A DNA stretch of 24,997 bases from a virus. The notes under the pieces are model-generated. The model was not told the origin of the DNA and searched no databases. It was given only the letters and a program-made list of their open reading frames with translations. How positions within the stretch are numbered: the stretch's first letter is position 1; every line of letters starts with the position of its first letter. The stretch spans positions 1 to 24,997 of the IMG/VR virus record IMGVR_UViG_3300006751_000119. One strand, given 5' to 3'. Of this stretch, positions 1-24,997 are shown piece by piece. The position numbers were made by a program, and so were the translations under genes.

Positions 1-3000
1 ACTTCATCAACATCATAATCACCTTCGAATATATTTAAAACATCAAAATCATTAACAATAGCAGTATTCCCATGCCTTTTCTTTAAGAATCCCTTTAATT
101 TAAGCACAGCTAAATCATTAGGAGCTGTTCTGGGGTATCTTGTTGTTAGAATACCTACCTGCCATTCACCTTTAGTTACTCTTGCAACTTCATCATGAAG
201 CATACCAAGGTTACCATTCTCAATCATATATTTCCATTGAGCTTCAGAATCCCTACCTAACTTTGCCCAAATTCCAGGTTTTTCCTTAGTTCCAACAAGC
301 ATGTCTTTTAAACTTTTCTGTTCTCCCTTTTGATTTACAACTCTCAAAACAATATCAGAACCTTTAAAATCTATTGAACCTGACCTAGCATTATCTGGAA
401 GCATTATTTCACCTGGGTCAACTTTTGTTTTACCAGGACCTTCTTTACCTTCACCAGTTCTAACTGAAATATCTAAGTTTCTAAATTTAAAACTTTGTTT
501 AATAACAGCTTTACCACCATATCTATCGCCTTTAGGGGTAATAGATTCTGGACTTAAAATAGGATCTAAAAATTGTGACTTTAAAGTGTTATGAAGGACA
601 TGTTCTCCCATCATACTAACATCACCCCCCATAGCAGCAATCTGTAAATGATGACCTAAATTTTTCAACTGTTGTGGTGAATTAGCTAAATCCTCAAGAC
701 TTGTTTTTAAATCAGCACCCTTTATTTTTAATAATGAAATTCTTTTATATAAATTGTCTTGAGTAAGTCTTCTAAGAATACCTTCCCCAGAATTAGCAGA
801 CGCACCTAATAATTGATCAATTTTACCTTTGTAAAAAGCATCGTAATAAGCTGCATGTTCTGTATTATTCATAAAATTAGCTAAAGAATATGATTGTCGC
901 GCATTCATTTCTACATCAGGAATAATTGTAACTCCAATTTTGTCCATATTCATAGTTTTGATATACTCAGATATTTCTTTACCTGAAATATTTAACATAC
1001 CATCTATATCTTTATCTATATATCTAATTCTATCTTGTTGTTTTTTAGGTAAATTAGCCCATTCAGCATCAGAAATAGAAGATTTCATCTTATCTGCACT
1101 CTTAGTCATAAGAATATCTAATCCTTTGTGTTTACCAAAGATATCAGCCTGTATATCAGGGTCATGAACAAATACTGTCTTGCCTAACATTAAGTAGTCT
1201 TTACCAGTAGAAGAAATTACTGGTTTAAAAACATTTGATCCTTTTCCTGAAACACCATAATAAAGTTCTAATATTCTTTTAAAATCTGCAGAGATAAATG
1301 ATATACTGTCAAATCCAGAAGCATCTTCTCTATTTCCAAGCATTTTTGTCCAGTCAGTACCTTTTTTCCTTAAAATCTTTTGTGTTTTTTTATCAGCCTT
1401 AATACTTGCTGTGCCCTCATCATTCCAAACAATAAATCCAACATCTCTTTTAGAAAAATCTTTTAGTAACTTTTTATCAGCTCCAGAAGAGTTACCTGCA
1501 AGTTGAAGCATTAAATTCTTATCCATTCTTTTAAATGAAGGTGTATGATAAAGACTAAATCTTTTCCCTAAATTAGCAAAGCCTTCAGAGGTCCCTCCAA
1601 TTATGTCTAAAAATTTATTCTCATTACCTTTTCCAGTAACCATTCTTTTAACAACAATGCTTCTCATAGCATCCTCGTGCGCTTCAGTCCAAGTATTAGA
1701 CTTTTCTAAAGTATTCATCATAGATTCAATCTTATCTCTAACTCTTCCTGTCGATGATTTTGCAAACTTCTTAAAAATTTCTGTTCTAAATAACTCTGTT
1801 ACTTCAGCAAAGCTAGTTCTAGGAACAGCAAGTGCATCTTTTGCATTCCCCATCCTTATTACTACTACACCTTTATGTTTGCCCTCAGCCCAGTCATGCT
1901 TTGAAATATTCTCATAAAAGTTCTTTACCAATTTCTTATTTTCTGCTGTATTAGAATAAGAATTAACGCTATGTGGAGATTCCATATCAAAAGCATTTAT
2001 TGATTTATTTAACAATCTTTTGCCAGTATACACTTGAGCAAATAATTCACCATCAACAAATACAAAAGGTATTTTAGAACCTTGAAGAAAATTAATAAAT
2101 GGATTCTTTTGTACGTTCTTGTTTCCGACAATTACTTTGTTATTACCAACCATTAATACATCAGTAGATACAGAACCATTTCTTAATACAAGCATTTTTT
2201 GAGTATCATCTTTAACTTGAACAAGCTTTTCTGCGTATTCTGGTTTAGAAAAAATATCCTTACCAGGTATTAAATCTTTACCAACTTTAACTTCCATAGA
2301 TTCAATTAAAGCTTTCATTGGATTTTTTGTTAATAAAGCTTTATCGAAATGTTGCTTTTGAACTTCAGCTTCTCCATATTTACTTCCATGACCAGTAGCA
2401 TCAGGAAAGTATTTATTAAAATAATCTTGTTGAGTCAAAGTTCCATGATTACCCTGAGATTTCTTATTCATGTAACTCTCTACTTCCATATTGGCAGCAT
2501 CAACCATCTTTTCTATATCGCTTGTTTTAACCCCAAATTTTTGTAACCATTCTTCTATTTTAGGCCTTAAAGATTCATCAGTCAATTTATCAGCATTTAA
2601 AACATAGTCTATAGTTCCCTTCTTCTTTTTAGTAGTTATTAGACCCTCACCTTGAAGAAAATTAAACAAAGCATCTGGATCATTCGTCCCTTCAAAATAT
2701 TTCTTAACACCTATATGTATAGGGTCAGAAGGGTCCATAGCTTTAACAAAGTCAATTAAAGTTTCTTGAGCATTTTGTTGAGCCTTTGTTCCAGCCCTTC
2801 TAAGAATATCCCTTAAAACTAATGCTTCATTTTTACCAAATGCATGGTCTCTAAAATTAATAGTATCACCTTCACCTATTAGTTTCTTCTTAGTGGTCCT
2901 GGAGGTACCTCTCTTTATTAAACCATCAACATACTCGTTATATTTATTTATAGCCTTATATACACGAGTTCTCTTGTCTTTAGGAGCGTTTATCATATCT

Positions 3001-5831
3001 ATCTTTTTAACAGAAAATCCAGTACCACCATCACCAAGAGTTGAATATTCAGCAAGAGGAATTCCTAATCCAGCTAGTTGATTTAAAACCGATATATCTT
3101 TACCGTCAATTTTAGTATCTCTAGCTATATCTACAAAGATTTTTTGTGTTACATCTGCTCTAAAAAAGTCAAGTAATTCTTTCTGAGTGATAATTTTATT
3201 ACTAGTTAAAAATGAATCTAATTTCTGCATCTGCTCAATAGATACTTCAGCTTTAGTTTGATTATCTCTACTTAATGACTTATTTCCTTTAGCTCCCAAT
3301 ATACCTAAAACAGAATTTTTTAAAGCATTCGCATTTCCAAGCTCCACCCCTTCAGCAGTTTTAACTGTTACATTCGGTCCAGCTAATAATTTATATCCAG
3401 TTAAAGTATTAGGATCTTTTTGAATTAGCCCTGAAGCTTCTAATTGAGGTAAAACTTGGTCATTCCATATAGGATTTTCAGTATCGCTAAAAAAGTTACC
3501 AAATCTTTCATGTCCCTTTTGAACACGTCTATGAAGAACAGGGAAAATTAAATCTGATAAGTCATTAAAATCAAATGTTCCACCTCTTTTATGGACATTA
3601 AATGTCTTTATCATACTAGCTTCACCAAAATTCAAAACCTCTATAAGTTTGCTTAATTCAGCCTCATTTCTAATGACAGCATTCTGTAATTGAGGATTTT
3701 CACTAGCAGACCCTTTCATAGTATTATGAATAGCCTCTAAAACATTATTAGCTTTATTACTGTAATCCTGAACATTTTTAAGGTTTACACCTTTAATCTT
3801 TCCTGCTTCAGCAAGATCCTGAATCTTTTGATCAATAACAATTCTTTTAGGAACAGTACCTAAATCACCACCTTCAGGAGTTTTTGTAGGGCCCCAATCT
3901 GTTATTTTAATCACATCATAAGCTGTTTTAATAACATTAGATTCCACATTGTCAATTATCTTTTCATTGATAGACTTCATCATAAAATCAAAATCTTTTA
4001 CAGTGTTTATTTTAACACCATCAAAATCGTTAGCTCTTATTGAAGCCTCTATAGCTTTAGCTTCTGCTTCTGTAATTAAAGCTTTAGGTTTTATGTATTT
4101 CTTAGGAGAGGCAGCTTGTAACCATTGATAATATTTATCAAACAATGGGAATGCTCTTTGAGTTCTGTATAAAGATGGAGATTTTTGAGATACTGAATTA
4201 CTTACTTCAATAGCTTCTGGAGTATCTCCAACTAAACTCAACTCTTCAGCCTTTCTATTAATCTTTTTAAACGTTCTATCTGTTAGAGGGTTTATATTAC
4301 TAAATTGACTTTCATGTAATGTAGGGATTGTATCATACAACCTTTGTTGAGGAATACCATAAGCATGTAATCCTCTTCTTAATTTTTGCATCTTAGGTAT
4401 ATTCATTTCAGGAGTTAAAGGCACTCCTTTTCTATTTAAAAATGCACCAATCATTAAAGAGGTCATAATATCTGTAGGGTCCATTTCATGCCCTCTAGCT
4501 ATATCTATAGAAGTTCTTATATTCATAATAGCAGTACCAAGTAAAACTCTTTTCCAATTAGCTAGGGTACTTTTGAAATCCTCAGTTACAGCAGCTTTCA
4601 TCATTTCCTTACCATAACGAACTCTTTCCTGATTTAATGCAATTTTTAAGTTTTTAACAGCTTCTGGCTTGGATATGGCCCCTTGAGATGATATTGGTCT
4701 TCTTAAGTCTATTGTTTTTTGACCAACCTTTACTGAATGTCTAAATCCGTTATCTTTAGCACTATCACCAATAATTTTTGAATTAGCTATAAGTTTATTA
4801 GTACTCATTTTATTGAAATGATTTCTACTAAATACAGCTTTAACACCACCTTTAAAATCAGTACTAGTAATAGATGATTTACCAGCTGCAGGTAACAATT
4901 TAAGGAAACCAAAGGCTGAACCAACTCCTACACCCCACAATGGAGCAGTCCAATCATATTCTCTATCTTCTCTTTTTGAATGAACAAATTCAGTAGCAGC
5001 GTCAATAAGACCAAACATAATACCTTCATTAATAACGCTACCCATTGCAAATCCCCATTTACTAGGATTTCTAGCCATAACAATATCAACAAAATCCTGC
5101 ATAGGTCTTGAGGTTACATTTTTCTTTATAGTTTCTTTTAGGATTAAAGCTTCTTTAGCTGTTATTGTTTTTTTTCTTACAGCTTCATTAGCTAAATTAG
5201 AAATGGCATCTGTAGCTCTTTTATTGAAGTTTTCTGCTACACCTTTACCAGCTTGATCCCATCTATGCTGATGGCTTAAACTGCTTATAGTTTTCTTAAC
5301 ATCCTTTTTAATGAAACTCATTTTAGCTTTAGTGCCAAACTGAGTTCTATGAGCTTTAGCTACAACATCATCCGCAGTCTTCTTAATAACATGCTCAACA
5401 GTCTCTGCTCCAGCTTTTTTAATAAATGGTTTAGCAACCATCTGGGTAGCTTTAGCACCTAACTTCATAGGACCACCATAAACAAAACCAACAGTACCAC
5501 CAATAGCTGACGTAACTTGACCTAATTTTGTTTTTGGAGTTAAATAATCTTCTTCAAATTCATCTGGAATAAGCCATCCAGGTACACCAAAAAAAGCAGT
5601 ATCTAATGCAGAATAGACAGGTAAACCTAAACCTTCCCAAACTAATCTACCAGCATCACCTGCATCAAAGCCTGATGGCTTCTGTAAAGGTGTTTGAGAT
5701 ATAGCTTCATCAGCTCCAGCTCTTTTTAATGGCTTTAAATCACTAGAATCAAAAATACTCTCTAATGATGTTTGCATTAATTTATCAGGATCTAAAGTTG
5801 ACCCCATCAAATCTTCTAAAGTTGTAACCAT
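1..5831 (-). CDS. Giant protein with two-barrel RNA polymerase signature; likely virion-packaged RNA polymerase (3' end outside window)
   Basis: I checked the reading frame triplet by triplet from ATG at 5831 to the window edge and found no stop, giving at least 1,943 residues; the C-terminus lies outside. Near the visible end are GDRYGGK (residues 1768-1774), GEIMLP (1807-1812), TRYPR (1897-1901), GFL (1914-1916), GNTAIVN (1921-1927) and GDYDVDE (1937-1943). R-x-P followed by GFL...GNT and D-x-D-x-D is the pattern of the second double-psi beta-barrel of crAss-like, YonO and QDE-1 type RNA polymerases, whose aspartates bind catalytic magnesium. K1774 or K1778 may be the first-barrel lysine (inference). 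The first ~1,700 residues match no family I know; glycine-rich hydrophobic stretches lie near 105-125 and 290-315, as in injected proteins. The gene follows four ejection-type genes, so packaging is likely. No good Shine-Dalgarno precedes the ATG; M9 (5807) is an alternative start. Confidence 0.82.
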   Translation of the reverse strand, partial: MVTTLEDLMGSTLDPDKLMQTSLESIFDSSDLKPLKRAGADEAISQTPLQKPSGFDAGDAGRLVWEGLGLPVYSALDTAFFGVPGWLIPDEFEEDYLTPKTKLGQVTSAIGGTVGFVYGGPMKLGAKATQMVAKPFIKKAGAETVEHVIKKTADDVVAKAHRTQFGTKAKMSFIKKDVKKTISSLSHQHRWDQAGKGVAENFNKRATDAISNLANEAVRKKTITAKEALILKETIKKNVTSRPMQDFVDIVMARNPSKWGFAMGSVINEGIMFGLIDAATEFVHSKREDREYDWTAPLWGVGVGSAFGFLKLLPAAGKSSITSTDFKGGVKAVFSRNHFNKMSTNKLIANSKIIGDSAKDNGFRHSVKVGQKTIDLRRPISSQGAISKPEAVKNLKIALNQERVRYGKEMMKAAVTEDFKSTLANWKRVLLGTAIMNIRTSIDIARGHEMDPTDIMTSLMIGAFLNRKGVPLTPEMNIPKMQKLRRGLHAYGIPQQRLYDTIPTLHESQFSNINPLTDRTFKKINRKAEELSLVGDTPEAIEVSNSVSQKSPSLYRTQRAFPLFDKYYQWLQAASPKKYIKPKALITEAEAKAIEASIRANDFDGVKINTVKDFDFMMKSINEKIIDNVESNVIKTAYDVIKITDWGPTKTPEGGDLGTVPKRIVIDQKIQDLAEAGKIKGVNLKNVQDYSNKANNVLEAIHNTMKGSASENPQLQNAVIRNEAELSKLIEVLNFGEASMIKTFNVHKRGGTFDFNDLSDLIFPVLHRRVQKGHERFGNFFSDTENPIWNDQVLPQLEASGLIQKDPNTLTGYKLLAGPNVTVKTAEGVELGNANALKNSVLGILGAKGNKSLSRDNQTKAEVSIEQMQKLDSFLTSNKIITQKELLDFFRADVTQKIFVDIARDTKIDGKDISVLNQLAGLGIPLAEYSTLGDGGTGFSVKKIDMINAPKDKRTRVYKAINKYNEYVDGLIKRGTSRTTKKKLIGEGDTINFRDHAFGKNEALVLRDILRRAGTKAQQNAQETLIDFVKAMDPSDPIHIGVKKYFEGTNDPDALFNFLQGEGLITTKKKKGTIDYVLNADKLTDESLRPKIEEWLQKFGVKTSDIEKMVDAANMEVESYMNKKSQGNHGTLTQQDYFNKYFPDATGHGSKYGEAEVQKQHFDKALLTKNPMKALIESMEVKVGKDLIPGKDIFSKPEYAEKLVQVKDDTQKMLVLRNGSVSTDVLMVGNNKVIVGNKNVQKNPFINFLQGSKIPFVFVDGELFAQVYTGKRLLNKSINAFDMESPHSVNSYSNTAENKKLVKNFYENISKHDWAEGKHKGVVVIRMGNAKDALAVPRTSFAEVTELFRTEIFKKFAKSSTGRVRDKIESMMNTLEKSNTWTEAHEDAMRSIVVKRMVTGKGNENKFLDIIGGTSEGFANLGKRFSLYHTPSFKRMDKNLMLQLAGNSSGADKKLLKDFSKRDVGFIVWNDEGTASIKADKKTQKILRKKGTDWTKMLGNREDASGFDSISFISADFKRILELYYGVSGKGSNVFKPVISSTGKDYLMLGKTVFVHDPDIQADIFGKHKGLDILMTKSADKMKSSISDAEWANLPKKQQDRIRYIDKDIDGMLNISGKEISEYIKTMNMDKIGVTIIPDVEMNARQSYSLANFMNNTEHAAYYDAFYKGKIDQLLGASANSGEGILRRLTQDNLYKRISLLKIKGADLKTSLEDLANSPQQLKNLGHHLQIAAMGGDVSMMGEHVLHNTLKSQFLDPILSPESITPKGDRYGGKAVIKQSFKFRNLDISVRTGEGKEGPGKTKVDPGEIMLPDNARSGSIDFKGSDIVLRVVNQKGEQKSLKDMLVGTKEKPGIWAKLGRDSEAQWKYMIENGNLGMLHDEVARVTKGEWQVGILTTRYPRTAPNDLAVLKLKGFLKKRHGNTAIVNDFDVLNIFEGDYDVDE

Positions 5832-5841
5832 CTATATATAT

Positions 5842-6927
5842 TTACTTAAAAGCATTATTTTTCCATGTGTCTTCCCAAAAAGAAAAATCCTGCAATTTAA
5901 AGTTATTGTATCTAGAATCTTCTATCATCTCATCCTTTTTAAGCCAATCAACATTTTGGACTGTATTTACATTAAAAGTTTTAGCATCAGAATATACATC
6001 GTAATCATGTTTTACAGAACCATATTCACTGCCATGCCCTTTATTAAACCAATTATCCTGAACACCACGACCACTTTGCCCTCTGAATTTACTCCCTAAT
6101 TCATTTCTAGGAATAAAATTTGCGTATAAGTCATTCATACTCAATCTACTGCCCTTAAGTAAATCAGCCTTTCCAGTTTTGCCTCTACTGTTAGCGTCCT
6201 TTATTTTACTTTTAGCTGATGCATTATTTTGAACCATATCTAAATAATATGTCATGACCTCATCTTTATCAAACAAAGCAATCGGTTCATGGCCTTCAAA
6301 AGCTCTAACTTTATTAACACTTTTAATATAAGTGTTCATAGATTCAAATCGTTCTTCTACCCAAGGAACATGTGATTTAGCTGCATCGATTCCTTGTTCT
6401 TGATTATAAAAAAGCGCCCCTAATATAGGAATGTTTTGTCCCGCATGATATCTACTAGGGTTCATATGTTTTAGAGTATTTTGTAAAAAAACTTGTTTTA
6501 GATTACCCATTTCAACAGCATCAGGAATATGATTGGTACTCCAAGTATAAAGATCTAAATGTTTAGTACTTTTAGTATTTTTACGTTCTGGATTCTGAAA
6601 CTGGGACAAATGACCTACTACTTTATGTGAAATATGTTTTCCAAATGCAAGTCCCGCTTCTTTCTTTGCTTTTTTGTAATTTGTTCCTGGATTTAAAGTT
6701 TCTTCAACTACAGAAAGATCTTGATCTGCTCCAAGTTCTGTAGGAGGTTTTAAGAAAGCTTCAGTAAGAGTTGTGGGAACTATCTTTTTTTGAGCATCTA
6801 TAGAATCTTGTTGTAGCTGTGCATTTAACTTAGCAAGATTTTCCTCAATTTGTTTCTGTCTATCTATATCACGCTGCTCAAATTGTGCTTCACTTTCTGC
6901 ATTTAAGCTGTCTAAAATACTTCCCAT
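5842..6927 (-). CDS. Hypothetical internal virion / ejection protein (361 aa)
   Basis: No family recognised. The ATG at 6927 is preceded by AAGGAGAAATA, a strong ribosome binding site. Residues about 10-48 form a charged, Gln/Glu-rich predicted coiled coil (AQFEQRDIDRQKQ...LAKLNAQLQQ). The remainder is hydrophilic and rich in Lys, Asn, His and Tyr, with no membrane segment, no cysteines seen and no catalytic motif I can name. It is the last small gene before the giant polymerase-like gene and ends 10 bases before that start. Position after the tail and fibre genes, among Gln-rich coiled-coil proteins, suggests a protein packaged in the head and ejected with the DNA, or a partner of the giant protein. 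That role is inferred from position only. Confidence 0.7.
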   Translation of the reverse strand: MGSILDSLNAESEAQFEQRDIDRQKQIEENLAKLNAQLQQDSIDAQKKIVPTTLTEAFLKPPTELGADQDLSVVEETLNPGTNYKKAKKEAGLAFGKHISHKVVGHLSQFQNPERKNTKSTKHLDLYTWSTNHIPDAVEMGNLKQVFLQNTLKHMNPSRYHAGQNIPILGALFYNQEQGIDAAKSHVPWVEERFESMNTYIKSVNKVRAFEGHEPIALFDKDEVMTYYLDMVQNNASAKSKIKDANSRGKTGKADLLKGSRLSMNDLYANFIPRNELGSKFRGQSGRGVQDNWFNKGHGSEYGSVKHDYDVYSDAKTFNVNTVQNVDWLKKDEMIEDSRYNNFKLQDFSFWEDTWKNNAFK

Positions 6928-6936
6928 TATTTCTCC

Positions 6937-8529
6937 TTAAATATTTTGGAAATTAACACTTTTTTGTAAATCAAAAGTAGCTTTTTCCAACTCTAGCCAT
7001 TCCATCATTTCATCTAATTTCTTTTGAGCATCTTTATCGCCTTTATCTATAGCATTATGATATGAAGCTTTCAAAGAATTAAGATTCTTAATATACCTTT
7101 GTTGTAATGCAAGGAATTTAGGATCTTTTGGGTCGATTTGTTGGATTTCCATTTCTCTAATTGCCATAACATCATCATATATACCTGCAGATTTCATATC
7201 TTGCTTCACACCCATCATTTGATCTAAACTTACAGGGTCTGTTATATATGCAGAAGTCTTATCGGCAACTGCTTGTATTTTGTTATATTTATTAAATGCA
7301 TCAGAAATAGTTGCAGACATATTTTGTTTTCCAGACTCAATTGCAGCAAGATCTTGTATAGCTTGTTGTGCTTCAGCAGGGTCTATACCTCTTAAATATT
7401 CAACTACACCACTTAAAGCTTCAGGCCCAGTGATAGATGAAGATAATAGATTGCTTATATGTTCTTGTCTTTTACCTTGGAAGGCAGCATTATCATCAGC
7501 ATAATCTTCAATTAAATCATAAACTTCTTCAAGTTCAACTAATTCTCCACCCCAATTAAGCGCAGGTTTATTATCTACTACTTGATAACCTATCATACCA
7601 GCATAATTAGCTTTCATAGAATCAAACTGTTTACCAGCAAGAACAACTGCAGGAGATCCTGCTAATTCACCTGCATATTTAACTTGTTTATCTCTTTCAG
7701 TATCTAACCATTTACTATATTCCACATTAGTCATGTAGTTTTTATTGTTCTCTACACCAGCTTGTATACCTTTTAATAAGTTCTTTAACTGTTGAGTATC
7801 TGTATGACTAATATACTGCATTCCATTTACATCTGTTTTTACTTCAATATCTGCAGGTATAAGATTCATTCCTTGTAATGTCATAATAGCTATAGGACTT
7901 AAAACCTCTCTATTGTAGTCTTTATTAGGAACTTCATTACCAAAAGTATCAACAGCAAATTCATTATTATCTAGCATAAGACTATTAGAGAAGAAAGTAT
8001 TGAAATCTTCTAAGTCTTGTGATGTCATCATATAAGGGCTTACATCACCACCTTGAGCAAATGTAACCTCAGGAGAAATCATCCCTCCACTAGCATACAT
8101 TCCATAACCTCTACCTATTTGATAGATCCTATTCCTTTGCATTAACTGATCATCAGTACCCTCTGTATCTAATCCTGCGTCCATTAAATTTTTAGTAACT
8201 GCAGCTATATTACTTTCTCTAACTGCTTGAGATTTTGTCATATCATAATTAATCAAATCAGGTTGTCCATTTATCCATTCTAATCCTGGATATTGAACTT
8301 CAAGATCTCTTTTCCATTTATCCTGTGATAATTCTTTTGTATTTTGATGTTCTACATTAATCACATCAAACTGATGTTGTCTTGCTTTATCTGCTTGTTC
8401 TTCTTTAAACCTTCTATCTCTAATTGCTTCTTCTGCTTGCAAATCTGATGCATATATATCAGCAGCAGCATCAGAAAGTATACTTAAAGCTCCTAAAGCC
8501 GCACTTATATTATCTTTACTACTAGCCAC
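6937..8529 (-). CDS. Hypothetical internal virion / ejection protein (about 530 aa, GTG start)
   Basis: Open frame ending TAA at 6937. Two in-frame GTG codons are possible starts, at 8535 and 8529. I chose 8529 because AGGAGG (8540-8535) lies 5 bases before it, whereas it abuts the other one. The gene overlaps the end of the upstream gene by 8 bases, so translation is probably coupled. Residues about 25-65 are a highly charged helical region (EEAIRDRRFKEEQADKARQ). A glycine-rich patch follows (YASGGMISPEVTFAQGGDV), then a mostly alpha-helical acidic body. No enzyme motif was found. It belongs to a run of four adjacent proteins that look like podovirus internal-core or ejection proteins; function is inferred from context. 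Confidence 0.72.
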   Translation of the reverse strand: MASSKDNISAALGALSILSDAAADIYASDLQAEEAIRDRRFKEEQADKARQHQFDVINVEHQNTKELSQDKWKRDLEVQYPGLEWINGQPDLINYDMTKSQAVRESNIAAVTKNLMDAGLDTEGTDDQLMQRNRIYQIGRGYGMYASGGMISPEVTFAQGGDVSPYMMTSQDLEDFNTFFSNSLMLDNNEFAVDTFGNEVPNKDYNREVLSPIAIMTLQGMNLIPADIEVKTDVNGMQYISHTDTQQLKNLLKGIQAGVENNKNYMTNVEYSKWLDTERDKQVKYAGELAGSPAVVLAGKQFDSMKANYAGMIGYQVVDNKPALNWGGELVELEEVYDLIEDYADDNAAFQGKRQEHISNLLSSSITGPEALSGVVEYLRGIDPAEAQQAIQDLAAIESGKQNMSATISDAFNKYNKIQAVADKTSAYITDPVSLDQMMGVKQDMKSAGIYDDVMAIREMEIQQIDPKDPKFLALQQRYIKNLNSLKASYHNAIDKGDKDAQKKLDEMMEWLELEKATFDLQKSVNFQNI

Positions 8530-9487
8530 CTTCACCTCCTGCTTTCATTTCTGCTATATAAGCTTCTAAATCACTTAATTGTTGTGATCCAGGGAATGTT
8601 TTTGTAGTTGTTGCCATATAATCACTTAAAGCTTGATTTTTTTGTGTATTGATACTTGTTAAAACATCATTATGCTGTTTTGCAGCTTCTTGAATTTTTG
8701 CTGTAGACTGCATACTGCCCTGTTTAGCTAAATCCTGCATTTGCTGATTCATTATTTGCTGAGTAGGATTAGCTCCTTCAAAACCTTGTTGAGCTTGCAT
8801 ATTTCTAGTTTGTTGAGCTGCTTGTTGACTCTGTTGAGCATGTTCAAATTGTAAAGCTCCTAATTCTCGCCCTTTTGTTTCCATAATATTACCTGATGGA
8901 CCTAAATCTTTTTGAGCTGATTCTAAAGTGTTTGTAAAACTTTCATCAGCTATACCTTTTGCTTGTTCTCTCATAGCAACTGTTTCATCATGACCACCAA
9001 GCCATCCGCCAAGTCCATGCTTACCAAATGTATGGTCCCATATTCCACCAAAAGTAAACCCTTCATCACTGGTAGCGCTCTGATATGCTCCATAAGCTAG
9101 GGTAGCGAGTGCTATTGTCTCCAAAACAAACTTTTCTTTTAATCCTGTATTAGGATTTATAGTAGATGAACCTAAGGCATTGACTAATTGCTTCCCCTTT
9201 TCTCCATATTTATCAATAAGAGTAGCTTCCCATTTATTAACATGAGTTAATTCATCATTTATTGTCCTTAAAGTTGAATCACCATATCTTCCTTGTCTAG
9301 AGAGTTGCAATAATGCTTTCTCTCTTTTTGACAAATGACCTCTACCTAAATCTTTTCGTGATTCTCCCCATTTTACAAAACCGCCACCATAACCACCAGA
9401 TGATCCAAATTGAGGTATATCATCTATAGCCATTGGTTCTCTTTCAACAGCTAACAAAGCTTTTTCTTCTTTTGACAATGCTTCCAT
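8522..9487 (-). CDS. Hypothetical internal virion / ejection protein, Gln-rich (321 aa)
   Basis: ATG at 9487 follows AAGGAAATT. A short motif occurs twice near the N-terminus: LSKEEKALLAVER (residues 4-16) and LSKREKALLQLSR (52-64), separated by a Gly-rich linker (SSGGYGGGF). Residues about 118-137 are moderately hydrophobic (FVLETIALATLAYGAY) and could contact a membrane. Residues about 205-265 are Gln/Ala-rich and predicted coiled coil. The C-terminus is Gly-rich (AGGEGG) and its codons double as the ribosome binding site of the next gene. Helical, Gln/Ala-rich proteins with a hydrophobic patch are typical of podovirus ejection proteins, but no specific family is recognised; the assignment rests on composition and position. 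Confidence 0.72.
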   Translation of the reverse strand: MEALSKEEKALLAVEREPMAIDDIPQFGSSGGYGGGFVKWGESRKDLGRGHLSKREKALLQLSRQGRYGDSTLRTINDELTHVNKWEATLIDKYGEKGKQLVNALGSSTINPNTGLKEKFVLETIALATLAYGAYQSATSDEGFTFGGIWDHTFGKHGLGGWLGGHDETVAMREQAKGIADESFTNTLESAQKDLGPSGNIMETKGRELGALQFEHAQQSQQAAQQTRNMQAQQGFEGANPTQQIMNQQMQDLAKQGSMQSTAKIQEAAKQHNDVLTSINTQKNQALSDYMATTTKTFPGSQQLSDLEAYIAEMKAGGEGG

Positions 9488-13785: not shown

Positions 13786-14265
13786 TTATGCTGTTTCTGC
13801 TACAAATACTTCCATATCACATGAAGCTGTGTCCGCATCTGCTGTAATAGACTTTAAATCACCAAGTGATACCGTCAATCCGCTCCCAGCTATTGCATCT
13901 AACACATCAGCCATACCTCCTGATATATCACCAGCAAAGACGAACGTTCTTCCAGCATCTAATTTAATAGCAGCTTCATCATCATTTTCATTAGCAAATG
14001 TTAAAATAATATGATTAGTATCATCAAGATTTGTAAATCTTATATACTGCACTTTAGCAGGAATTGATTGTCCTGCAGCCATTGCTGATGAAAAAGTCAT
14101 AACGGTAGCTTCAGTTGTTGTAACTGTTAGTATCCTTCTATCTACATTAGCAATACTACCAATAGTATAAGATTGTACACTTCCATAATCTTTATTATTA
14201 ATAGTGATAGCTTCTGACATTGTTACAGTCATTGTAGCGGCAGCGTAACTACTCGATCTAGCCAT
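13786..14265 (-). CDS. Small beta-sandwich virion protein candidate (159 aa)
   Basis: ATG at 14265 follows AAGGAGATAAAGT and overlaps the previous stop by 8 bases. The protein is rich in Thr, Ala, Ser and Val with alternating hydrophobic residues, as in all-beta decoration or fibre-associated proteins. A central stretch (VQYIRFTNLDDTNHIILTF, then IKLDAGRTFVFAG) follows the pattern V.YI...NL........ G..F.F. A related pattern is seen in the proteins at 15815-16339 and 17662-18147. It has no enzyme motif. A role as a minor capsid or tail decoration is inferred from composition and context. Confidence 0.72.
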   Translation of the reverse strand: MARSSSYAAATMTVTMSEAITINNKDYGSVQSYTIGSIANVDRRILTVTTTEATVMTFSSAMAAGQSIPAKVQYIRFTNLDDTNHIILTFANENDDEAAIKLDAGRTFVFAGDISGGMADVLDAIAGSGLTVSLGDLKSITADADTASCDMEVFVAETA

Positions 14266-14473: not shown

Positions 14474-14718
14474 TCTAAATCCATTAGAATTTCTTCTAGT
14501 CTATTAAATCTATCATCTAATTTAGTTTCTATTGTAGCTACCCCTATTTTAAGGTCAACTATTGCGTCCTCATTAACTTTAACTCTTACAACAGTTTTAG
14601 CCTGATCTGATTTAATTGTTTCTATTTTTTCAGTTGATACTCCATGAGTATAAATTATACCTCCAAGTACAGTTATCATTGTCAGTAACGTTCCTATTGA
14701 TATTTTCTTGTCAATCAT
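14470..14718 (-). CDS. Small single-pass membrane protein with coiled coil (82 aa); holin/lysis candidate
   Basis: ATG at 14718 directly follows the upstream TAG, with GGAGGA 8 bases before it. Residues about 7-24 are a predicted membrane segment (SIGTLLTMITVLGGIIYT) preceded by two lysines. The remaining 58 residues are charged and predicted helical or coiled coil, ending acidic (RFNRLEEILMDLE). One N-terminal membrane helix plus a coiled coil occurs in small holin-like and accessory lysis proteins and also in unrelated phage membrane proteins, so the call is tentative. There is no lipobox and no endolysin next to it. Confidence 0.68.
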   Translation of the reverse strand: MIDKKISIGTLLTMITVLGGIIYTHGVSTEKIETIKSDQAKTVVRVKVNEDAIVDLKIGVATIETKLDDRFNRLEEILMDLE

Positions 14719-15012
14719 CTAATCTTCCTCCATTTTACGCAAAAACTTATGTTTTAGGCCGTTTCCTGATAAATGGGCTATAATGTCCACTAAAGCTTTA
14801 TATTGCCTATTTAACCCCTTCTGCTCGATTTGCATCTTTTTCTGTTGATCTATCAATTTAATAATAATACCTTCCAACCTCTTGAAGTCTTGGTCTAGTT
14901 CGCTCATAAGAGTAGATTGAATGAATCGATTTTGTTTCCAAATGAAAAACCCGAACGCCATTGCTACCGCCACAGGTATTCCAAATTGTTCCAATATCGT
15001 AAGTATATCCAT
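14719..15012 (-). CDS. Holin-like single-pass membrane protein (97 aa)
   Basis: The ATG at 15012 shares its A with the upstream TAA (TAATG), and GGAGGAAAATA precedes it. The N-terminus is short, followed by a hydrophobic helix at about residues 9-25 (QFGIPVAVAMAFGFFIW). Charged coiled-coil sequence follows (QDFKRLEGIIIKLIDQQKK...) with a basic C-terminus. Layout and length resemble the BhlA/UviB type of holin-like proteins (one N-terminal helix, charged tail); that comparison comes from general knowledge of the family, not a search. Together with the next two genes it makes the best candidate lysis group in the window. It could instead be a membrane anchor of unrelated function. Confidence 0.68.
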   Translation of the reverse strand: MDILTILEQFGIPVAVAMAFGFFIWKQNRFIQSTLMSELDQDFKRLEGIIIKLIDQQKKMQIEQKGLNRQYKALVDIIAHLSGNGLKHKFLRKMEED

Positions 15013-15797
15013 TATTTTCCTCCATTAATAAGCTCCCCCCACAGCGAAGTTCGTCCATTAATTATTTGTATAATATGTACTGTAAATAAACCCTTAGCAT
15101 AAAAATCAACAATGGCAAAAGCATGAGCCCAATTAATTCTTCTATTAGCCAACCACTCATTTGAGTCTGGCCCCATATCTTTCAGACACCCAATGCTCCA
15201 TGCACTCTTTGGTCCATCCATATGAGTTGCGCTCATCTGCTGTAAATCGTGCCAATGTCCATACATTATATTGCATCCTAACTTCCTAATGTGGTTAGCA
15301 GTATGATATTGACCACCATATTGATGCCCATGATAAAAGTATAATTTTCCCATTTTAAGATGTTTTCCGAATTGATAGTATTTGTAGCCGCGCTCACTAA
15401 GCCGAACAGCATTAGCAAATCTATAATGAGGTATATAGGGGTACTTTTCAACTGCCATATTAAGCCAATTGTCATGATTACCCTCAGTAATATACTTTTC
15501 TGTGCAACCGACTTTATCCAAAGACTCATCGATTTGATCCATTCCACTATTAACATCTTTTATATCCTTATCAAAATCTTTTATTAAGTATTCTAATGGT
15601 GGGGCCTTTCTTCTTTTAAACTTCCAAGCTGAAAAACCTTCCCACTCTCCAACGTCACCCAAATCTATATAAGCATCTGGTTTAACTATTTCAATCGTTT
15701 TCTTAAGGCAATTTATAGCCTTTTGATCATGCAATGGAAAGTGTTTATCTGGTGTTACTATTACACGTTTTACAACGCCAGTATCCACTTTTGGCAT
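15012..15797 (-). CDS. Calcineurin-like metallophosphoesterase (261 aa)
   Basis: All the hallmark metal ligands are present in order: D17-x-H19 (TPDKHF), G47-D48 (LGDVGEW), G106-N-H-D109 (EGNHDN), H156-G-H158 (YHGHQYGG) and G180-H-x-H183 (GHWHD). This is the calcineurin-type phosphoesterase site with two metal ions, so an active phosphodiesterase or phosphatase is likely; the substrate cannot be told from sequence. Length is normal for a single-domain member, with no extra domain. ATG at 15797 follows AAAGGAGTAATT. It lies inside the structural gene cluster between a beta-sandwich protein and small membrane proteins, and its last codons provide the GGAGG site for the holin-like gene. A role on nucleic acid or nucleotides late in infection, or in the virion, is inference. 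Confidence 0.9.
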   Translation of the reverse strand: MPKVDTGVVKRVIVTPDKHFPLHDQKAINCLKKTIEIVKPDAYIDLGDVGEWEGFSAWKFKRRKAPPLEYLIKDFDKDIKDVNSGMDQIDESLDKVGCTEKYITEGNHDNWLNMAVEKYPYIPHYRFANAVRLSERGYKYYQFGKHLKMGKLYFYHGHQYGGQYHTANHIRKLGCNIMYGHWHDLQQMSATHMDGPKSAWSIGCLKDMGPDSNEWLANRRINWAHAFAIVDFYAKGLFTVHIIQIINGRTSLWGELINGGK

Positions 15798-15814
15798 AAT
15801 TACTCCTTTATTTA

Positions 15815-16339
15815 TTATAAGTCATCTATTATAGCATACACCTCAGCTTGTATTTCTCCTTGAGGTGAACCGCTACCTCTATCTTTTTGATCTGAAATAA
15901 CATGAATATTTTCGATTGCAGTATTTAATTTAGCAAACCAACATTCTCCTGGGCCTATTTCTATACAATCTCCAGATGTATAAGCTGCTGCACCTGCATC
16001 TAAACATAAATAAATACTATCAGCTGTATTAGCTGTTCCATCGCCTTCTACACTTCTATGTTTTATAAATAAAAATTTTACTTTATCCGAACCTGGAGCT
16101 ATACTAGCAATAGATGAGCCAGTATTTACTCCATTACTAGCTGCAGCAGGTCCTGTTTGAAGAAATGACGTTGCTGCTATTAAATCTGTAGAACTTGTAG
16201 TAATATCAGTCAACTGATAATACCATCCCTCTGTAGCATTTGCTGGTTGATATGATACAGTTATATCGTCAAGTTGTTTAGATATAGTATCTGGTAAAAG
16301 AGTTGGTCTTACCATTATTGAAGCAGCATTGTTTGCCAT
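15815..16339 (-). CDS. Beta-sandwich virion protein candidate (174 aa)
   Basis: ATG at 16339 follows directly on the upstream TAG; the nearest Shine-Dalgarno-like AGAGGA is 12 bases away, so coupling is likely. The C-terminal half (KFLFIKHRS, then TADSIYLCLDAG, SGDCIEIGPGECWFAKL and IHVISD) can be aligned by eye with the protein at 17662-18147 (LVYIKHTG, AADTLKVAIDG, SGDGVILAELVNGEAIAF, FILISGD). The two are probably paralogues with a shared beta-sandwich. The Gly-Pro-Gly-Glu turn is typical of small phage decoration or tail proteins. The N-terminus is unrelated to that of the paralogue. The structural role is inferred from this and from the neck-gene context. Confidence 0.75.
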   Translation of the reverse strand: MANNAASIMVRPTLLPDTISKQLDDITVSYQPANATEGWYYQLTDITTSSTDLIAATSFLQTGPAAASNGVNTGSSIASIAPGSDKVKFLFIKHRSVEGDGTANTADSIYLCLDAGAAAYTSGDCIEIGPGECWFAKLNTAIENIHVISDQKDRGSGSPQGEIQAEVYAIIDDL

Positions 16340-17389
16340 CTAAAAGAATCCTCTCACTATATAAGGACCTCTTTTTCTAGAAGAAGCTCCTTTTTCCATT
16401 TGTTTTTTAAATAATCTCATAAAAAATTCTCTACCTTCCATATCTCTCATATCCTCAGAAAGTTTAGCTTTAACATAATAAACTACAGCTTGTGCTTGAT
16501 ATTCTGTTAAATCTAACTCAAAAGATTCATCTTCTAAAGCTTCTATACCTTCATATACAGATATTTGCTCATAAAATATATTATATATACTAACTGTATC
16601 ATTTCCTGCAGTTGTAACATTTGCTGCTGTAGATGTATAATCTCCATCGGCATCAATAGTTATTTGATTATTAACATTTAATGCTCCTGAATTAGATGTA
16701 TCACTTAAAGAAAATATTCCATTACCATCAGCATTAACAGCATTTTCCACAAATATATAAGATGTTCCTCTGTAATCCTGCGCATCTTTAAAAGCTTCAA
16801 TATCCATTTTTTGAGTATTTGTATCACCTATATAAAGTTCATCTGCAATATCAACTACAATATCAGTTAATACTGAAGGTTTTAAATTGCATTTAGTTTT
16901 TAATGTTAAAATACCAGTTGCTGACCCTGCAGATTTAACTTGATGAAGTCCAGACCATCTTCCAGAACCTGAAATATAAATCCAATCATCAGCTGCAAAT
17001 AAACTTGATAAGTCAGCTACATCACTAGCACCATAAGTAAATAATAATAAATTAGTACCATTAGATCCCCAACCTATAAATCTATGGAAATCAGAACCTT
17101 CTGTTAAAGTACTTTGAATATTAAATGTCGGAGTATAAGAGTACTCTATTTCAATTCCTTTTGAAATACTCTCAGTAGGACTAGTATATTTTTCATACAT
17201 AGTATCAGAAGTTGAACTTCCACTACTAGGTATCCATTGCCCTCCTGCTGCTTCACAAGTAGCCTTTGTTGTATATCCAGATAAAGTACAATGAGCTACC
17301 GCTAAGAAACCACTAGTAGAATGACTAGATTCTTCGACTATTGCAACTTTATTTCCTTTATTATAATATGCGTATCTTTTAAATGCCAT
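16340..17389 (-). CDS. Neck/adaptor-type structural protein, C-terminal partner with inserted domain (349 aa)
   Basis: I chose the ATG at 17389 because GAGG lies 6 bases before it and it overlaps the previous gene by only 11 bases; the frame stays open upstream to 17479. Residues 33-52 hold a small cysteine motif (HC...GYTTKATCEAAGGQW). Then comes a beta-rich middle (WGSNGTNLLLF...DDWIYISGSGRWSGLHQV), probably inserted. The C-terminus (EYQAQAVVYYVKAKLSEDMRD, then FKKQMEKG...RKRGP) is the helical end typical of head-tail adaptor proteins of marine podoviruses. With the 93-residue gene upstream it seems to make up a complete adaptor in two pieces. Function is inferred from these resemblances and from position. 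Confidence 0.77.
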   Translation of the reverse strand: MAFKRYAYYNKGNKVAIVEESSHSTSGFLAVAHCTLSGYTTKATCEAAGGQWIPSSGSSTSDTMYEKYTSPTESISKGIEIEYSYTPTFNIQSTLTEGSDFHRFIGWGSNGTNLLLFTYGASDVADLSSLFAADDWIYISGSGRWSGLHQVKSAGSATGILTLKTKCNLKPSVLTDIVVDIADELYIGDTNTQKMDIEAFKDAQDYRGTSYIFVENAVNADGNGIFSLSDTSNSGALNVNNQITIDADGDYTSTAANVTTAGNDTVSIYNIFYEQISVYEGIEALEDESFELDLTEYQAQAVVYYVKAKLSEDMRDMEGREFFMRLFKKQMEKGASSRKRGPYIVRGFF

Positions 17390-17660
17390 CTGTATCCTCT
17401 GTAAAAGGTTCATAAACTGATCTTGGAATGCTTCTATACTCACTATCACCATTTTCATGATTCTTACATCTAATATCAAGAATTTTCACAGCGTTATTAG
17501 GTAATTGGTAAAACCTTTTACCTGCCTCTATATCTATTCTAGTAGTTTCTACGTGAGTTTCAGAAGACATAGCTATTTCTTCTAAAGCTTCTTTTATATA
17601 AATAACTGCACGTCCAGTTTCAACTACGCCAGCTCTTTCCATTATATCTACAACTTTCAT
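17379..17660 (-). CDS. Head-tail adaptor N-terminal-type protein (93 aa)
   Basis: The order of elements matches the N-terminal half of phage adaptor or connector proteins: a helix (ERAGVVETGRAVIYIKEALEEI), the segment THVETTRIDI, then F/Y-x-L-P (RFYQLPNNAVKILDIRCKN), a Tyr-Leu-Pro turn followed by a strand that in known adaptors faces the portal. It ends at 17379, where the 349-residue gene begins with an 11-base overlap in another frame. The start ATG (17660) is one base after the upstream TAA and has no clear Shine-Dalgarno, so coupling is likely; an ATG at residue 7 is an alternative. Whether this is a free small protein or half of a split adaptor is discussed in the findings. Confidence 0.75.
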   Translation of the reverse strand: MKVVDIMERAGVVETGRAVIYIKEALEEIAMSSETHVETTRIDIEAGKRFYQLPNNAVKILDIRCKNHENGDSEYRSIPRSVYEPFTEDTDGI

Positions 17661-17661
17661 A

Positions 17662-18147
17662 TTAAGTCGCCACTATTAAAGTTTCTGCACCCACATGGTT
17701 ATCACCACTAATTAATATAAATGCACCAGTTATACCTAGTCTTGGAAAAGCAATAGCTTCTCCATTAACAAGTTCAGCTAAAATAACTCCATCACCAGAA
17801 ACTCCTGAAGTTGCTGAACCATCTATTGCTACTTTTAATGTATCTGCAGCTGCTGAAGCGTTTGTTGTACCAAATAAATACCCTGTATGTTTAATATATA
17901 CTAAATCAGTATTAGTATCAAATGATAGTATTGATCCATTAGAAGTAACAGCTGTATTAACTCCGTCAGCCCATCCACCTGCAATTGTTGTGTCTCCGCT
18001 ATTAGATGTTATTTCTCCACTACCGCCTAAACTTCTTCTAACATTTTCATTAATAACTTCAATTTCTTGATTTACACCATCAGCAGCATCCATTAATATT
18101 TTAGGCGTAACTGATACCGCAAATGATGTTTTATTTGTATTTGCCAC
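17662..18147 (-). CDS. Beta-sandwich virion protein candidate (161 aa, GTG start)
   Basis: GTG at 18147 follows immediately on the upstream TAA; AGGAGA sits 6 bases upstream, so the GTG is well supported. The C-terminal half matches the 174-residue protein at 15815-16339 (YIKH, AADTLKVAIDG, SGDGV, GEAIAF, ISGD). The N-terminus (FAVSVTPKILMDAADGVNQEIEVINENVRRSL) resembles a virion attachment helix-strand region. Low-charge Thr/Ser/Gly/Val-rich composition fits an all-beta structural protein. Its place between the neck protein and the adaptor suggests a head-tail joining or decoration role; this is inference. Confidence 0.74.
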   Translation of the reverse strand: MANTNKTSFAVSVTPKILMDAADGVNQEIEVINENVRRSLGGSGEITSNSGDTTIAGGWADGVNTAVTSNGSILSFDTNTDLVYIKHTGYLFGTTNASAAADTLKVAIDGSATSGVSGDGVILAELVNGEAIAFPRLGITGAFILISGDNHVGAETLIVAT

Positions 18148-20848: not shown

Positions 20849-22408
20849 TTACGTCCACAGAGCGTGAGTCTCAGGACAACACCACTCCATGCCAGCTTCA
20901 GTTAAGATTTGATCTACTCTACGATCGACTCCTGAGTTCTCTAATGTCTGAACCCCTACGTAGACTGAAGTATCTCTGTTAATACCATTACCAACCAATG
21001 GTCTATATGCAGCATATTTCATATTGATACCTAACATTTTAACATTAGTACCATCTAAGTGAACATTTCTTGCTACATTCATATCACCATATACAGTTGA
21101 TATAGTTGTAATATCAATACCAAACACTTTTTTCTTACCAGCTATAGAGAAATCTGCTCTATAATTAGGCGAGATTTCAATATTATTAGCAAAGTATCCA
21201 GATAATTTATGCAACCAATTGTAAACTGCTGTAGAACAGAAGAATACAGTTGAACCTGCATTGTTGTATCTAGGATCTAACATTGCTGATAAATCATCCA
21301 AGAATGAATCTTGTGTTTTAGTAGCTGTATTTAAACTAAAAGAGTTACCATAAGTTGAAATAAAGTTAACAGCACCTTCTGTTGTGTTCACGCCACTTGT
21401 AGTAGCTTGAGAACCAAACAATAATGCGTTTTCAATATCCCATTTATGTTCAATTAGTTTTTCTTTCCAGATTCGAGCCCATTCGTTACCTTCATATTTT
21501 AAAACTGTAGCTCTATCAGTATTATTCATCACTGCTGAAGTTTTGAATATCTGAGTTTGACCATAGTTTGTAGAATATGGTTGGTCTGCCCAAGTTTCTG
21601 GATAACCAGTACCAACACCATGTGCTGACCCAACTACATAACATTTAAAGCTTTCCATAAATTCTGAAGACTTTGTTGTTGTAGTTACAGTAGCATCATA
21701 TGCTAAACCAGCCGCAGAATCATCTGTTATATCAGAACTAGCTACTGCATTTGTAAAAAATACAGCTGAACCAGAACCCTTAACACATGTTGCATTCACA
21801 ACAGCTTTGTTAACACCAGTAGCTGCTGCTGAAGAACTTTCTGGTAATGTATCAAGATCTACACTATTAACTTTCCATAGTGAATAACCTGAAACTGTAC
21901 CAGCATCTGCATTAGCTGCTGTTGATCCATGTGGTATTTTAATTATCTGACCAGGTATAAAGAACTTTGGTTGAGTTCCTTCTGCACCTTCGTAATAGTC
22001 AACAGCTTGTCCATATATATTTTGCATATTACCGTCATTATTGTAATCGGTAAAGAATGAAAATGTATATACATTACCTGCTGCAGGAGTCCCAGTTGTT
22101 GAGGGATCTGTTGCAGGTATAGATATTGCTGCAGTACTAAAGTCAGACATATAAGCATAACGCTTAGTATAAGACGATCTTTTTTCAGTAAATTTGAAAG
22201 TAGGATCATCTGTAGCTTTTTTAGAAACCATGCTTAGAAATCTAAAGAATGGATCTTGCGACAACGCTAATTCTGATACATAGTTACCGAAGTTATATTT
22301 TCTTCGTAACGCACCAGTATTATACGTGGAAGCAGTAGATCCAGTCAGAGCATTTCTACCTTGGCCACTATATAGGCTATTACCGCCTATAGTATTACTA
22401 TCTGCCAT
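20849..22408 (-). CDS. Major capsid protein, HK97-fold type (519 aa)
   Basis: ATG at 22408 follows CAAGGAGATAAA. It sits directly after scaffold and portal and is followed by decoration genes, the normal place for the major capsid protein. Recognisable segments are the N-terminal arm and first conserved part (YNFGNYVSELALSQDPFFRF, residues 38-57; KFTEKRSSYTKRYAYM, 72-87), the middle helix (KYEGNEWARIWKEKLIEHKW, 304-323, then NALLFGS), and the C-terminal shell part ending MEWCCPETHALWT with adjacent cysteines at 510-511. Residues about 95-245 are a Ser/Thr/Ala-rich beta region that looks like an inserted surface domain. It resembles coat proteins of the SU10-related marine podovirus type, by eye only. 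Confidence 0.9.
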   Translation of the reverse strand: MADSNTIGGNSLYSGQGRNALTGSTASTYNTGALRRKYNFGNYVSELALSQDPFFRFLSMVSKKATDDPTFKFTEKRSSYTKRYAYMSDFSTAAISIPATDPSTTGTPAAGNVYTFSFFTDYNNDGNMQNIYGQAVDYYEGAEGTQPKFFIPGQIIKIPHGSTAANADAGTVSGYSLWKVNSVDLDTLPESSSAAATGVNKAVVNATCVKGSGSAVFFTNAVASSDITDDSAAGLAYDATVTTTTKSSEFMESFKCYVVGSAHGVGTGYPETWADQPYSTNYGQTQIFKTSAVMNNTDRATVLKYEGNEWARIWKEKLIEHKWDIENALLFGSQATTSGVNTTEGAVNFISTYGNSFSLNTATKTQDSFLDDLSAMLDPRYNNAGSTVFFCSTAVYNWLHKLSGYFANNIEISPNYRADFSIAGKKKVFGIDITTISTVYGDMNVARNVHLDGTNVKMLGINMKYAAYRPLVGNGINRDTSVYVGVQTLENSGVDRRVDQILTEAGMEWCCPETHALWT

Positions 22409-23382: not shown

Positions 23383-24997
23383 TTATTCATTTTTGGTTGT
23401 ATTTTCCAAATCTTTTCTTACTTCTTCTAATATAGATACAGCTTCACGCTGATTAGATTTTATATTCTCTTGAACGGCTTGCTGGTTAGCTTGTACATTA
23501 TTAGCCATTACATTACGCAATAATTTCTGTTGGCCTTCTGTCTGAATATACTCTTTACTCATATTAGCTTTAACTTGCTCTTTCTTCTTAGTAATCTCCA
23601 TATCTGCTTGCATTACTTTACCTTTAATACCAGCTTGAACAAGTTGTCTTTCAAGAGTTTCAATTGTGCCATCTTTATCTTTCATAGCTTCTTGTAACTG
23701 TGATAGTTGACCTTGAAGTTGAGCGTATAAAGATTTACGTTGAACAATTTTATCTTTATTCTTAATATCTGTTTCTGCTAATACAGCAACATCATCAACA
23801 ACTCCTAGTCTCATTAACTCTTTTAATTCTTCAAGATAAGCCCATCTATTAACAGGCATTGTAGAACCAGAAATAACTCTTACATCATATTTTTGAGCAG
23901 ATATATCCATAGATTTACCTATAGCTTCGCCCATATCATTATAAACGGGTATATTTATTTCTTGTTCCTTTCCTTCCTGAATTGCATTAGGTTGAATTAA
24001 TCTAAATCTTTTATTAGCTGTATATGTAGCTTGAGAATATTGCAAAACTAACCTTCCTAATCTTTCTAATGACGGCTCTATAGATCCATTCATCCATTGC
24101 TTAATCCTTCTTGTTCCATATTCATCTAATGCAAGCATACCTCTATAAGTCTCACTAGCTCCACCAGCATCACCCATCATAGAACTATAAATACCAGCTA
24201 AGTACTCAACATCTTGTTTGCTTTCTTGAACTATGCTATAAAATGCGTTAGCTAATGGCGCTGGTTGTACTGGTGTAGGAGGAGTTACTCCTGGTCTAAT
24301 AGGTAGTAATGCTCCTGGACTAGAAGAGTACTTCTCCCAAGTTTCAGCGTCTATAGAGCCTTCTTCATACATCCATCTCAGACTACTGCCGAGTGAAGCA
24401 TTATGTACCATAAGTTGATGAGATTTATTTATTTCTTGTTGCTTACCTATTAATGGAGCAACTGCACTCATTGGATATGGAGTACCTGTCCATTTAAAAT
24501 GAAAAGGGACAATAGGATATTCAGTTATAGTATCTGGTAATACATTCTCATATATAAGTTTATCACCAACTATACAAGTTTGTTTAAGTCTTGTTACATA
24601 AAATTGTATTGAATCAACTATAGTTTCTGCTGTTTTAGGATTCTTAGAAAATTGTTTGAATTCTTTTTCTGTAACAATTATATTCTCAATTTTAGAAGCT
24701 TCTGCTTGAAGTTGACTCATGCATTGTTGTTCAAATGTCTGAAGTTGCTGCATCATCATTTGCTGTGCTTTTTCTATTTCCAGCTTATATCTTTCAGGAA
24801 GCATATCACCCTTTTGAACAGCTTCTTGCATTTGTTTGTCTTGTTCAAGCAGTTGAACTTCTAGTTCTTTTTGCATTTCCATTACTTGAACTTTACATTG
24901 TTCTTGAATTTGTTTTAGAACTTTTTCATCAGGTGGAACTCTAAAAAATACACTTACATTAGAGACTTTAACTTTTTCATAAACTTCAAAAAATTCA
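23383..24997 (-). CDS. Portal protein (C-terminal part; 5' end outside window)
   Basis: The frame is open to the window edge (visible residues begin EFFEVYEKVKVS), so the internal ATG at 24882 is not the true start. Visible features typical of podovirus portal proteins are a strand-rich wing region (YPIVPFHFKWTGTPYPMSAV), the helix PLIGKQQEINKSHQLMVHNA, the segment VEYLAGIYSSMMGDAGGASE (tail-facing loop and stem helix), a following helix (RIKQWMNGSIEPSLERLGRL) and a crown-like helix (NRWAYLEELKELMRLGVV). The last ~130 residues are a Gln/Lys/Glu-rich coiled coil, a barrel-like extension. The portal forms the DNA entry and exit ring at one capsid vertex. The gene ends with TAA at 23383, 28 bases before the scaffold start. 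Confidence 0.9.
   Translation of the reverse strand, partial: EFFEVYEKVKVSNVSVFFRVPPDEKVLKQIQEQCKVQVMEMQKELEVQLLEQDKQMQEAVQKGDMLPERYKLEIEKAQQMMMQQLQTFEQQCMSQLQAEASKIENIIVTEKEFKQFSKNPKTAETIVDSIQFYVTRLKQTCIVGDKLIYENVLPDTITEYPIVPFHFKWTGTPYPMSAVAPLIGKQQEINKSHQLMVHNASLGSSLRWMYEEGSIDAETWEKYSSSPGALLPIRPGVTPPTPVQPAPLANAFYSIVQESKQDVEYLAGIYSSMMGDAGGASETYRGMLALDEYGTRRIKQWMNGSIEPSLERLGRLVLQYSQATYTANKRFRLIQPNAIQEGKEQEINIPVYNDMGEAIGKSMDISAQKYDVRVISGSTMPVNRWAYLEELKELMRLGVVDDVAVLAETDIKNKDKIVQRKSLYAQLQGQLSQLQEAMKDKDGTIETLERQLVQAGIKGKVMQADMEITKKKEQVKANMSKEYIQTEGQQKLLRNVMANNVQANQQAVQENIKSNQREAVSILEEVRKDLENTTKNE

Follow-up and report, generated by a model that had tools for sequence, protein, structure and literature searches.

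Virion RNA polymerases with two barrels have been described in crAss-like phages, in jumbo phages and in a few Thermus phages. The virion RNA polymerase of phage N4 has a T7-type single-subunit fold. When 23 two-barrel families were compared, many had no significant sequence similarity beyond the surroundings of the DxDxD motif (PMC10770324). In phage P23-45, the two-barrel virion RNA polymerase (vRNAP) gp96 is fused to a giant virion protein, the tape measure (PMC10770324). RDR2 and QDE-1 are single chains with the order DPBB1-connector-DPBB2 (PMC8713982), as in the family that we describe here. (DPBB1 and DPBB2 are the first and second barrel.) For gp66 of Cellulophaga phage phi14:2, we drew on its deposited record and on PMC10770324, PMC8713982 and PMC7886860. 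The crAss-type enzyme has precedent outside Crassvirales, because Flavobacterium phage Fpv2 (locus L091, KU599878) carries one inside a giant "structural protein" of ~4,400 amino acids. As a kind, then, the single-chain two-barrel virion RNA polymerase is already known; as far as the searched sequence collections and the literature show, the branch that we describe is new, as are its phages and its N-terminus.

Our locus very probably encodes a virion-packaged, single-chain two-barrel RNA polymerase of a divergent crAss-type branch outside Crassvirales. Our computations establish the family and its active-site residues, its match in fold and its place in the genome, while packaging and activity are what we infer. 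The window (the whole stretch of DNA that was analysed) is an entire IMG/VR record of exactly 24,997 bases, and its edge is the end of the record. The giant gene reads from an ATG at 5831 on the minus strand to position 3, 1,943 codons in all, and is cut there by the end of the record. The open frame and its motifs (GDRYGGK, GEIMLP, TRYPR, GFL, GNTAIVN and GDYDVDE) lie exactly where the original prediction had placed them. With no sequence past this edge in the record, we completed the left part of the protein from relatives. Complete family members have ~2,750-3,000 amino acids, so the window carries roughly the first two thirds. In relatives, the polymerase extends ~870-1,000 residues past the DxDxD motif; the window protein stops one codon after it, and its completeness therefore rests on relatives. 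The gene and its parts are as follows.

3..5831, minus strand: giant gene of the two-barrel RNA polymerase, codons 1-1943 of an expected ~2,850, cut by the record end
2286..5831, minus strand: N-terminal region, residues 1-1182, almost all helical in the AF2 model and conserved in the family
1077..1334, minus strand: first barrel (DPBB1), residues ~1500-1585, with FDSISFIS, FKPVISS, GKT and DILMTKSADK (from residues identical in 43/43 and the gp66 alignment)
1224..1226, minus strand: invariant first-barrel lysine K1536, 43/43 identical, aligned to gp66 K1012
1179..1181, minus strand: invariant first-barrel lysine K1551, 43/43 identical, aligned to gp66 K1027
1089..1091, minus strand: invariant first-barrel lysine K1581, 43/43 identical, aligned to gp66 K1065
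510..530, minus strand: GDRYGGK, residues 1768-1774, ahead of the second barrel (G1772 in 42/43)
396..413, minus strand: GEIMLP, residues 1807-1812, start of the second-barrel region, counterpart of E-x-x-x-P in crAss RNA polymerases
6..143, minus strand: core of the second barrel (DPBB2), TRYPRTAPND...KGFL...GNTAIVN...DYDVD (from the profile score)
114..143, minus strand: TRYPRTAPND, from residue 1897 (this motif and the next three placed in the translation)
residues 1913-1916, minus strand: KGFL
51..71, minus strand: GNTAIVN, residues 1921-1927
3..35, minus strand: NIFEGDYDVDE, residues 1933-1943
6..20, minus strand: predicted metal-binding DxDxD (D1938, D1940, D1942), 43/43, aligned to gp66 D1361, D1363 and D1365

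Successive searches of IMG/VR returned 23, then 48, then 5 relatives' loci, from at least 51 distinct viral contigs. We counted conservation in an alignment of 43 family proteins, using the residue numbers of the window protein. Eight residues up to the start of the second-barrel region (D1508, S1509, K1536, K1551, T1552, K1581, N1652 and G1807) and ten beyond it (P1900, T1902, D1906, F1915, G1921, D1930, E1936, D1938, D1940 and D1942) are identical in all 43. Two of the aligned homologues have diverged to as little as 16% identity across the N-terminal 1,182 residues; given such divergence, the identity in 43/43 indicates that the second-barrel motifs are conserved beyond chance. The fourth position of the DxDxD motif is V, A, I, F or Y, never the glycine of the YonO-type and cellular enzymes (DxDGD).

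A two-barrel scaffold that has lost polymerase activity, with no role but that of a giant protein inside the virion or ejected from it, would account for the huge size, for the place among unassigned structural genes and for the speed at which most of the chain diverges. We nevertheless consider it highly improbable, as the three aspartates and the three first-barrel lysines are strictly invariant in 43 proteins that share ~16-25% identity elsewhere. Were catalysis lost, such invariance would be unexpected.

Relatives were found neither in 50,697 phage records (tblastn, E ≤ 1) nor in the GTDB genome collection; 14 pattern matches in bacterial genomes were rejected, as they are not relatives. 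Weak matches to caspase-7 (E = 0.12) were dismissed as chance. Profile searches with the giant protein against Pfam, PHROGs and PDB sequences gave nothing significant. However, Pfam and PHROGs also miss gp66 of phi14:2 itself, so their null results are uninformative.

We then compared the family with ten crAss-type RNA polymerases using HHalign, with 100 column shuffles as the control. The cropped regions gave a single alignment over both barrels (score 63.6, probability 87, E = 3.8e-6), as compared to a mean of 17.8 and a maximum of 25.9 for the shuffles (n = 100). With each barrel on its own, the scores were 41.0 for the second (E = 3.5e-6; shuffle maximum 19.2) and 18.6 for the first (shuffle maximum 17.5). 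With uncropped full-length profiles, the register was unchanged and the score was weaker (P = 0.008). All catalytic positions are paired between the family and gp66. For the relative L025, the pairs in the first barrel are D1540-D962, G1558-G980, K1572-K1012, K1587-K1027 and K1617-K1065, and those in the second barrel are R1929-R1322, P1931-P1324, G1952-G1345, D1969-D1361, D1971-D1363 and D1973-D1365. The first two first-barrel lysines are 15 residues apart in both the family and gp66, and the three lysines of gp66 are invariant as well. Ahead of the second barrel, G1807 of L025 (which corresponds to G1772 of the window protein or its neighbour) is aligned to gp66 G1245; at the start of the second-barrel region, the crAss-like phage cr8_1 reads EIMLP where the window has GEIMLP. 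In both the family and the crAss type, the motif is D[YFL]D[VIAFY]D, in most cases with K next, and R-x-P lies ~39-40 residues upstream; a glycine occupies the fourth position in cellular enzymes and in YonO, gp64 and gp96. HHalign detected no similarity to the single sequences of these last three. Thus, of the kinship that had been proposed with crAss-like and YonO-type polymerases, the crAss-like part holds (this is the closest enzyme), and YonO gave no support. The same alignment, together with the invariance in 43/43, bears out D1938, D1940 and D1942 as the predicted metal ligands.

The alignment also shortens the unrecognised N-terminal part, which had been put at 1,700 residues or more. 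The first barrel lies at residues ~1500-1585, outside the positions 1-600 given in the original prediction, and the match to the crAss RNA polymerase profile begins near residue 1430, so ~1,200-1,400 residues are unrecognised. Our AF2 model of the N-terminal region (pLDDT 74.9, pTM 0.52) found no solved fold like residues 1-1182 in a Foldseek search of the PDB (the best E was only 0.59), and the N-terminal profile found nothing below E = 0.16 in the PDB. We speculate that these ~1,200-1,400 helical residues might help with packaging or with crossing the tail and the envelope.

For the polymerase region, we predicted the structure (AF2) of residues 1300-2499 of the relative L003 from an alignment of 21 sequences. 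(L003 is 50% identical to the window protein over the last 200 residues.) The model has a pLDDT of 74.6 and a pTM of 0.70. As had been proposed, its best solved match by Foldseek is a crAss-like RNA polymerase, the vRNAP of phi14:2 (6vr4_A; E = 7.5e-10, probability 1.00, 1,206 columns), followed by RDR2 from maize (7.5e-6) and Arabidopsis (2.9e-5) and then by multisubunit beta' chains. Against BFVD, Foldseek returned two viral proteins at 2.5e-53 and 3.8e-35, ahead of numerous proteins of crAss-like phages. The superposition is poor and the global TM-scores are low (for gp66, 0.28 by query), which is no surprise in a chain of several domains whose packing is uncertain; that the packing is uncertain follows from the modest TM-scores and from the confidence of the five models, which spans 59.9 to 74.6. 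The model places a 34-residue helix after the DxDxD motif. Past the motif, the sequence does not match gp66 significantly (4 of 100 shuffles score as high as the real alignment), so the bridge helix and the trigger loop are putative.

Two independent tests, structure and profile-profile alignment with shuffle controls, thus identify a two-barrel RNA polymerase. If the aspartate-rich loop were instead a metal- or calcium-binding surface loop of an unrelated giant protein, with the likeness to polymerases due to convergence, then the silence of the Pfam, PHROG and PDB sequence profiles and of the comparisons with single sequences of YonO, gp64 and gp96 would be natural. Yet Pfam and PHROGs are just as silent about gp66, and the polymerase match emerges independently from the fold search and from the profile alignment over both barrels, so we give this explanation almost no credence.

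We next consider where the polymerase gene lies. It is at the end of the structural block, behind genes with no assignment, and in the same direction as the capsid, portal and tail genes. The relevant genes of the window, and the gene that follows the polymerase in a relative, are these.

5842..6927, minus strand: upstream gene, 361 amino acids, candidate virion cargo or ejection protein (from its position)
6937..8535, minus strand: upstream gene, 532 amino acids, candidate virion cargo or ejection protein
8522..9487, minus strand: upstream gene, 321 amino acids, candidate virion cargo or ejection protein
20849..22408, minus strand: major capsid protein (phrog_1328, E = 1.6e-7; 55-75% identical in 18 relatives)
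23383..24996, minus strand: portal protein, cut by the window end (phrog_156, E = 2.8e-36)
14649-17423 of relative L025, outside the window: ~900-amino-acid partner gene after the polymerase

The block also contains a metallophosphoesterase (15012-15797; phrog_221), and g075 of phi14:2 belongs to the same family. Small genes of similar size lie among the head and tail genes (13786-14265, 15815-16339, 17662-18147, 19793-20215 and 20226-20834) and possibly encode decoration or fibre proteins. At 16340-17660, two overlapping frames (16340-17479 and 17379-17660) may be one gene split by a frameshift, either programmed or a sequencing error.

The terminase, portal and capsid families, together with the genome size, support placing the window phage outside Crassvirales, as had been suggested. 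The large terminase subunit (TerL) of the relatives is phrog_38; in phi14:2, TerL, portal and capsid are phrog_6681, phrog_6547 and phrog_11589, and phrog_6681 was not found in the 7 relatives searched. Several relatives have genomes of 54-56 kb, one with a 123-bp end repeat, as compared to ~90-100 kb for Crassvirales. (One 111,116-base record, G021, which holds locus L101, has two phrog_38 matches ~60 kb apart, at 11.8 and 72.0 kb, and is possibly a concatemer or two copies. In another, G013, adjoining genes for a JAB-like peptidase, a weak match, and a ThiF/E1-like domain at L075:7254-8859 resemble a ubiquitin-like conjugation pair.) CRP-810, a weak capsid match, was set aside: its 2,016-amino-acid protein has neither D-x-D-x-D nor a profile match.

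In every relative with a long enough flank, the gene right after the polymerase is conserved, nearly always with ~890-950 amino acids. This partner has no convincing Pfam match and no significant HHalign match to gp65. By tblastn it weakly matches (E = 8e-3) the C-terminal part of a 2,328-amino-acid protein of Rhizobium phage TM29, which we rejected as a relative of the polymerase because it lacks D-x-D-x-D. In a search of shared intergenic 12-mers for an early-promoter motif, A/T-rich words and words resembling ribosome-binding sites were at about the shuffle level, with one genome marginally above it.

Two-barrel RNA polymerases that are not virion proteins exist (PMC10770324), and the enzyme could be one of these, made early by the host polymerase and serving middle or late genes, like YonO or gp64 of P23-45. 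This seems improbable, given that the gene lies in the structural block and, in the relative G002, runs opposite to the helicase gene; that the closest enzyme by both fold and profile is a virion one; and that a giant non-polymerase N-terminus is often found in vRNAPs. That the polymerase is packaged is suggested by this position and by analogy with gp66.

In the model that we infer for this virion enzyme, D1938, D1940 and D1942 of the second barrel would hold Mg2+, and the first barrel would bring K1536, K1551 and K1581 into the same active site, for catalysis on a DNA template. The ~870-1,000 residues past the DxDxD motif would hold the bridge helix, the trigger loop and the clamp. The polymerase would travel inside the particle of a short-tailed phage, alongside the cargo proteins that the adjoining genes encode, and would enter the cell with the DNA, perhaps with the help of its N-terminus, to transcribe early genes without the host polymerase. 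More broadly, it is likely that the injected two-barrel RNA polymerases of these ~55-kb phages outside Crassvirales form a widespread lineage of their own, with their own translocation module of ~1,200 residues and their own ~900-amino-acid partner. If so, crAss-type virion transcription would be an ancient strategy that otherwise distinct phage lineages have in common or have exchanged.

Our results add ~50 contigs of phages with the crAss-type enzyme and with other capsid, portal and terminase families. As at least 50 relatives carry this enzyme and their capsid genes are not crAss-like, the crAss-type virion enzyme appears to be more widespread than described. The family is invisible to Pfam and PHROGs, and the paired signature (K...K...K in the first barrel, then R-x-P...D-x-D-x-D) can annotate giant "structural" genes of uncultured phages. 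A system of intermediate size (~2,850 amino acids, ~55-kb genome) would be suited to testing how a large enzyme is packed and injected and what its N-terminus does. The family also bears on how phage RNA polymerases relate to those of RNA interference.

Among the known systems, the N4 enzyme is likewise a giant virion polymerase of a short-tailed phage. The T7-type family PF00940 is not among the Pfam matches of the window protein; a search for it had no match in nine relatives, nor in any control genome. By fold, only gp66 matches better than RDR2, but RDR2 has DLDGD where the family has DxD[VIA]D, and RDR2 and QDE-1 have no giant N-terminal extension and no phage context. P23-45 gp96 has DFDGD, with its barrels near the N-terminus of a 5,002-amino-acid tape measure; it has no profile similarity to the family and comes from a long-tailed phage. 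Fpv2 (Fipvunavirus, Caudoviricetes, with no order) also has a crAss-type polymerase outside Crassvirales, with a DYDID motif, but it clearly matches gp66 by tblastn (E = 5e-22), whereas our family finds no phage record even at E = 1. The closest system is gp66 of phi14:2 and other Crassvirales (PDB 6VR4). The family differs from it in sequence (~12% aligned identity), in having ~560 more residues ahead of the aligned region, in its downstream partner, in its TerL, portal and capsid families, and in its ~55-kb genome (vs. ~100 kb). In spite of these differences, gp66 is the best fold match, with both barrels in one stretch; it has the same lysine and aspartate positions; its motif is D-x-D-[VI]-D, mostly followed by K, rather than the DxDGD of cellular and YonO-type enzymes; the length after the motif is similar (~870 residues in the family vs. 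815 in gp66); and its gene lies behind the virion proteins of phi14:2 and is followed by one large gene, for the RNA polymerase-associated gp65.
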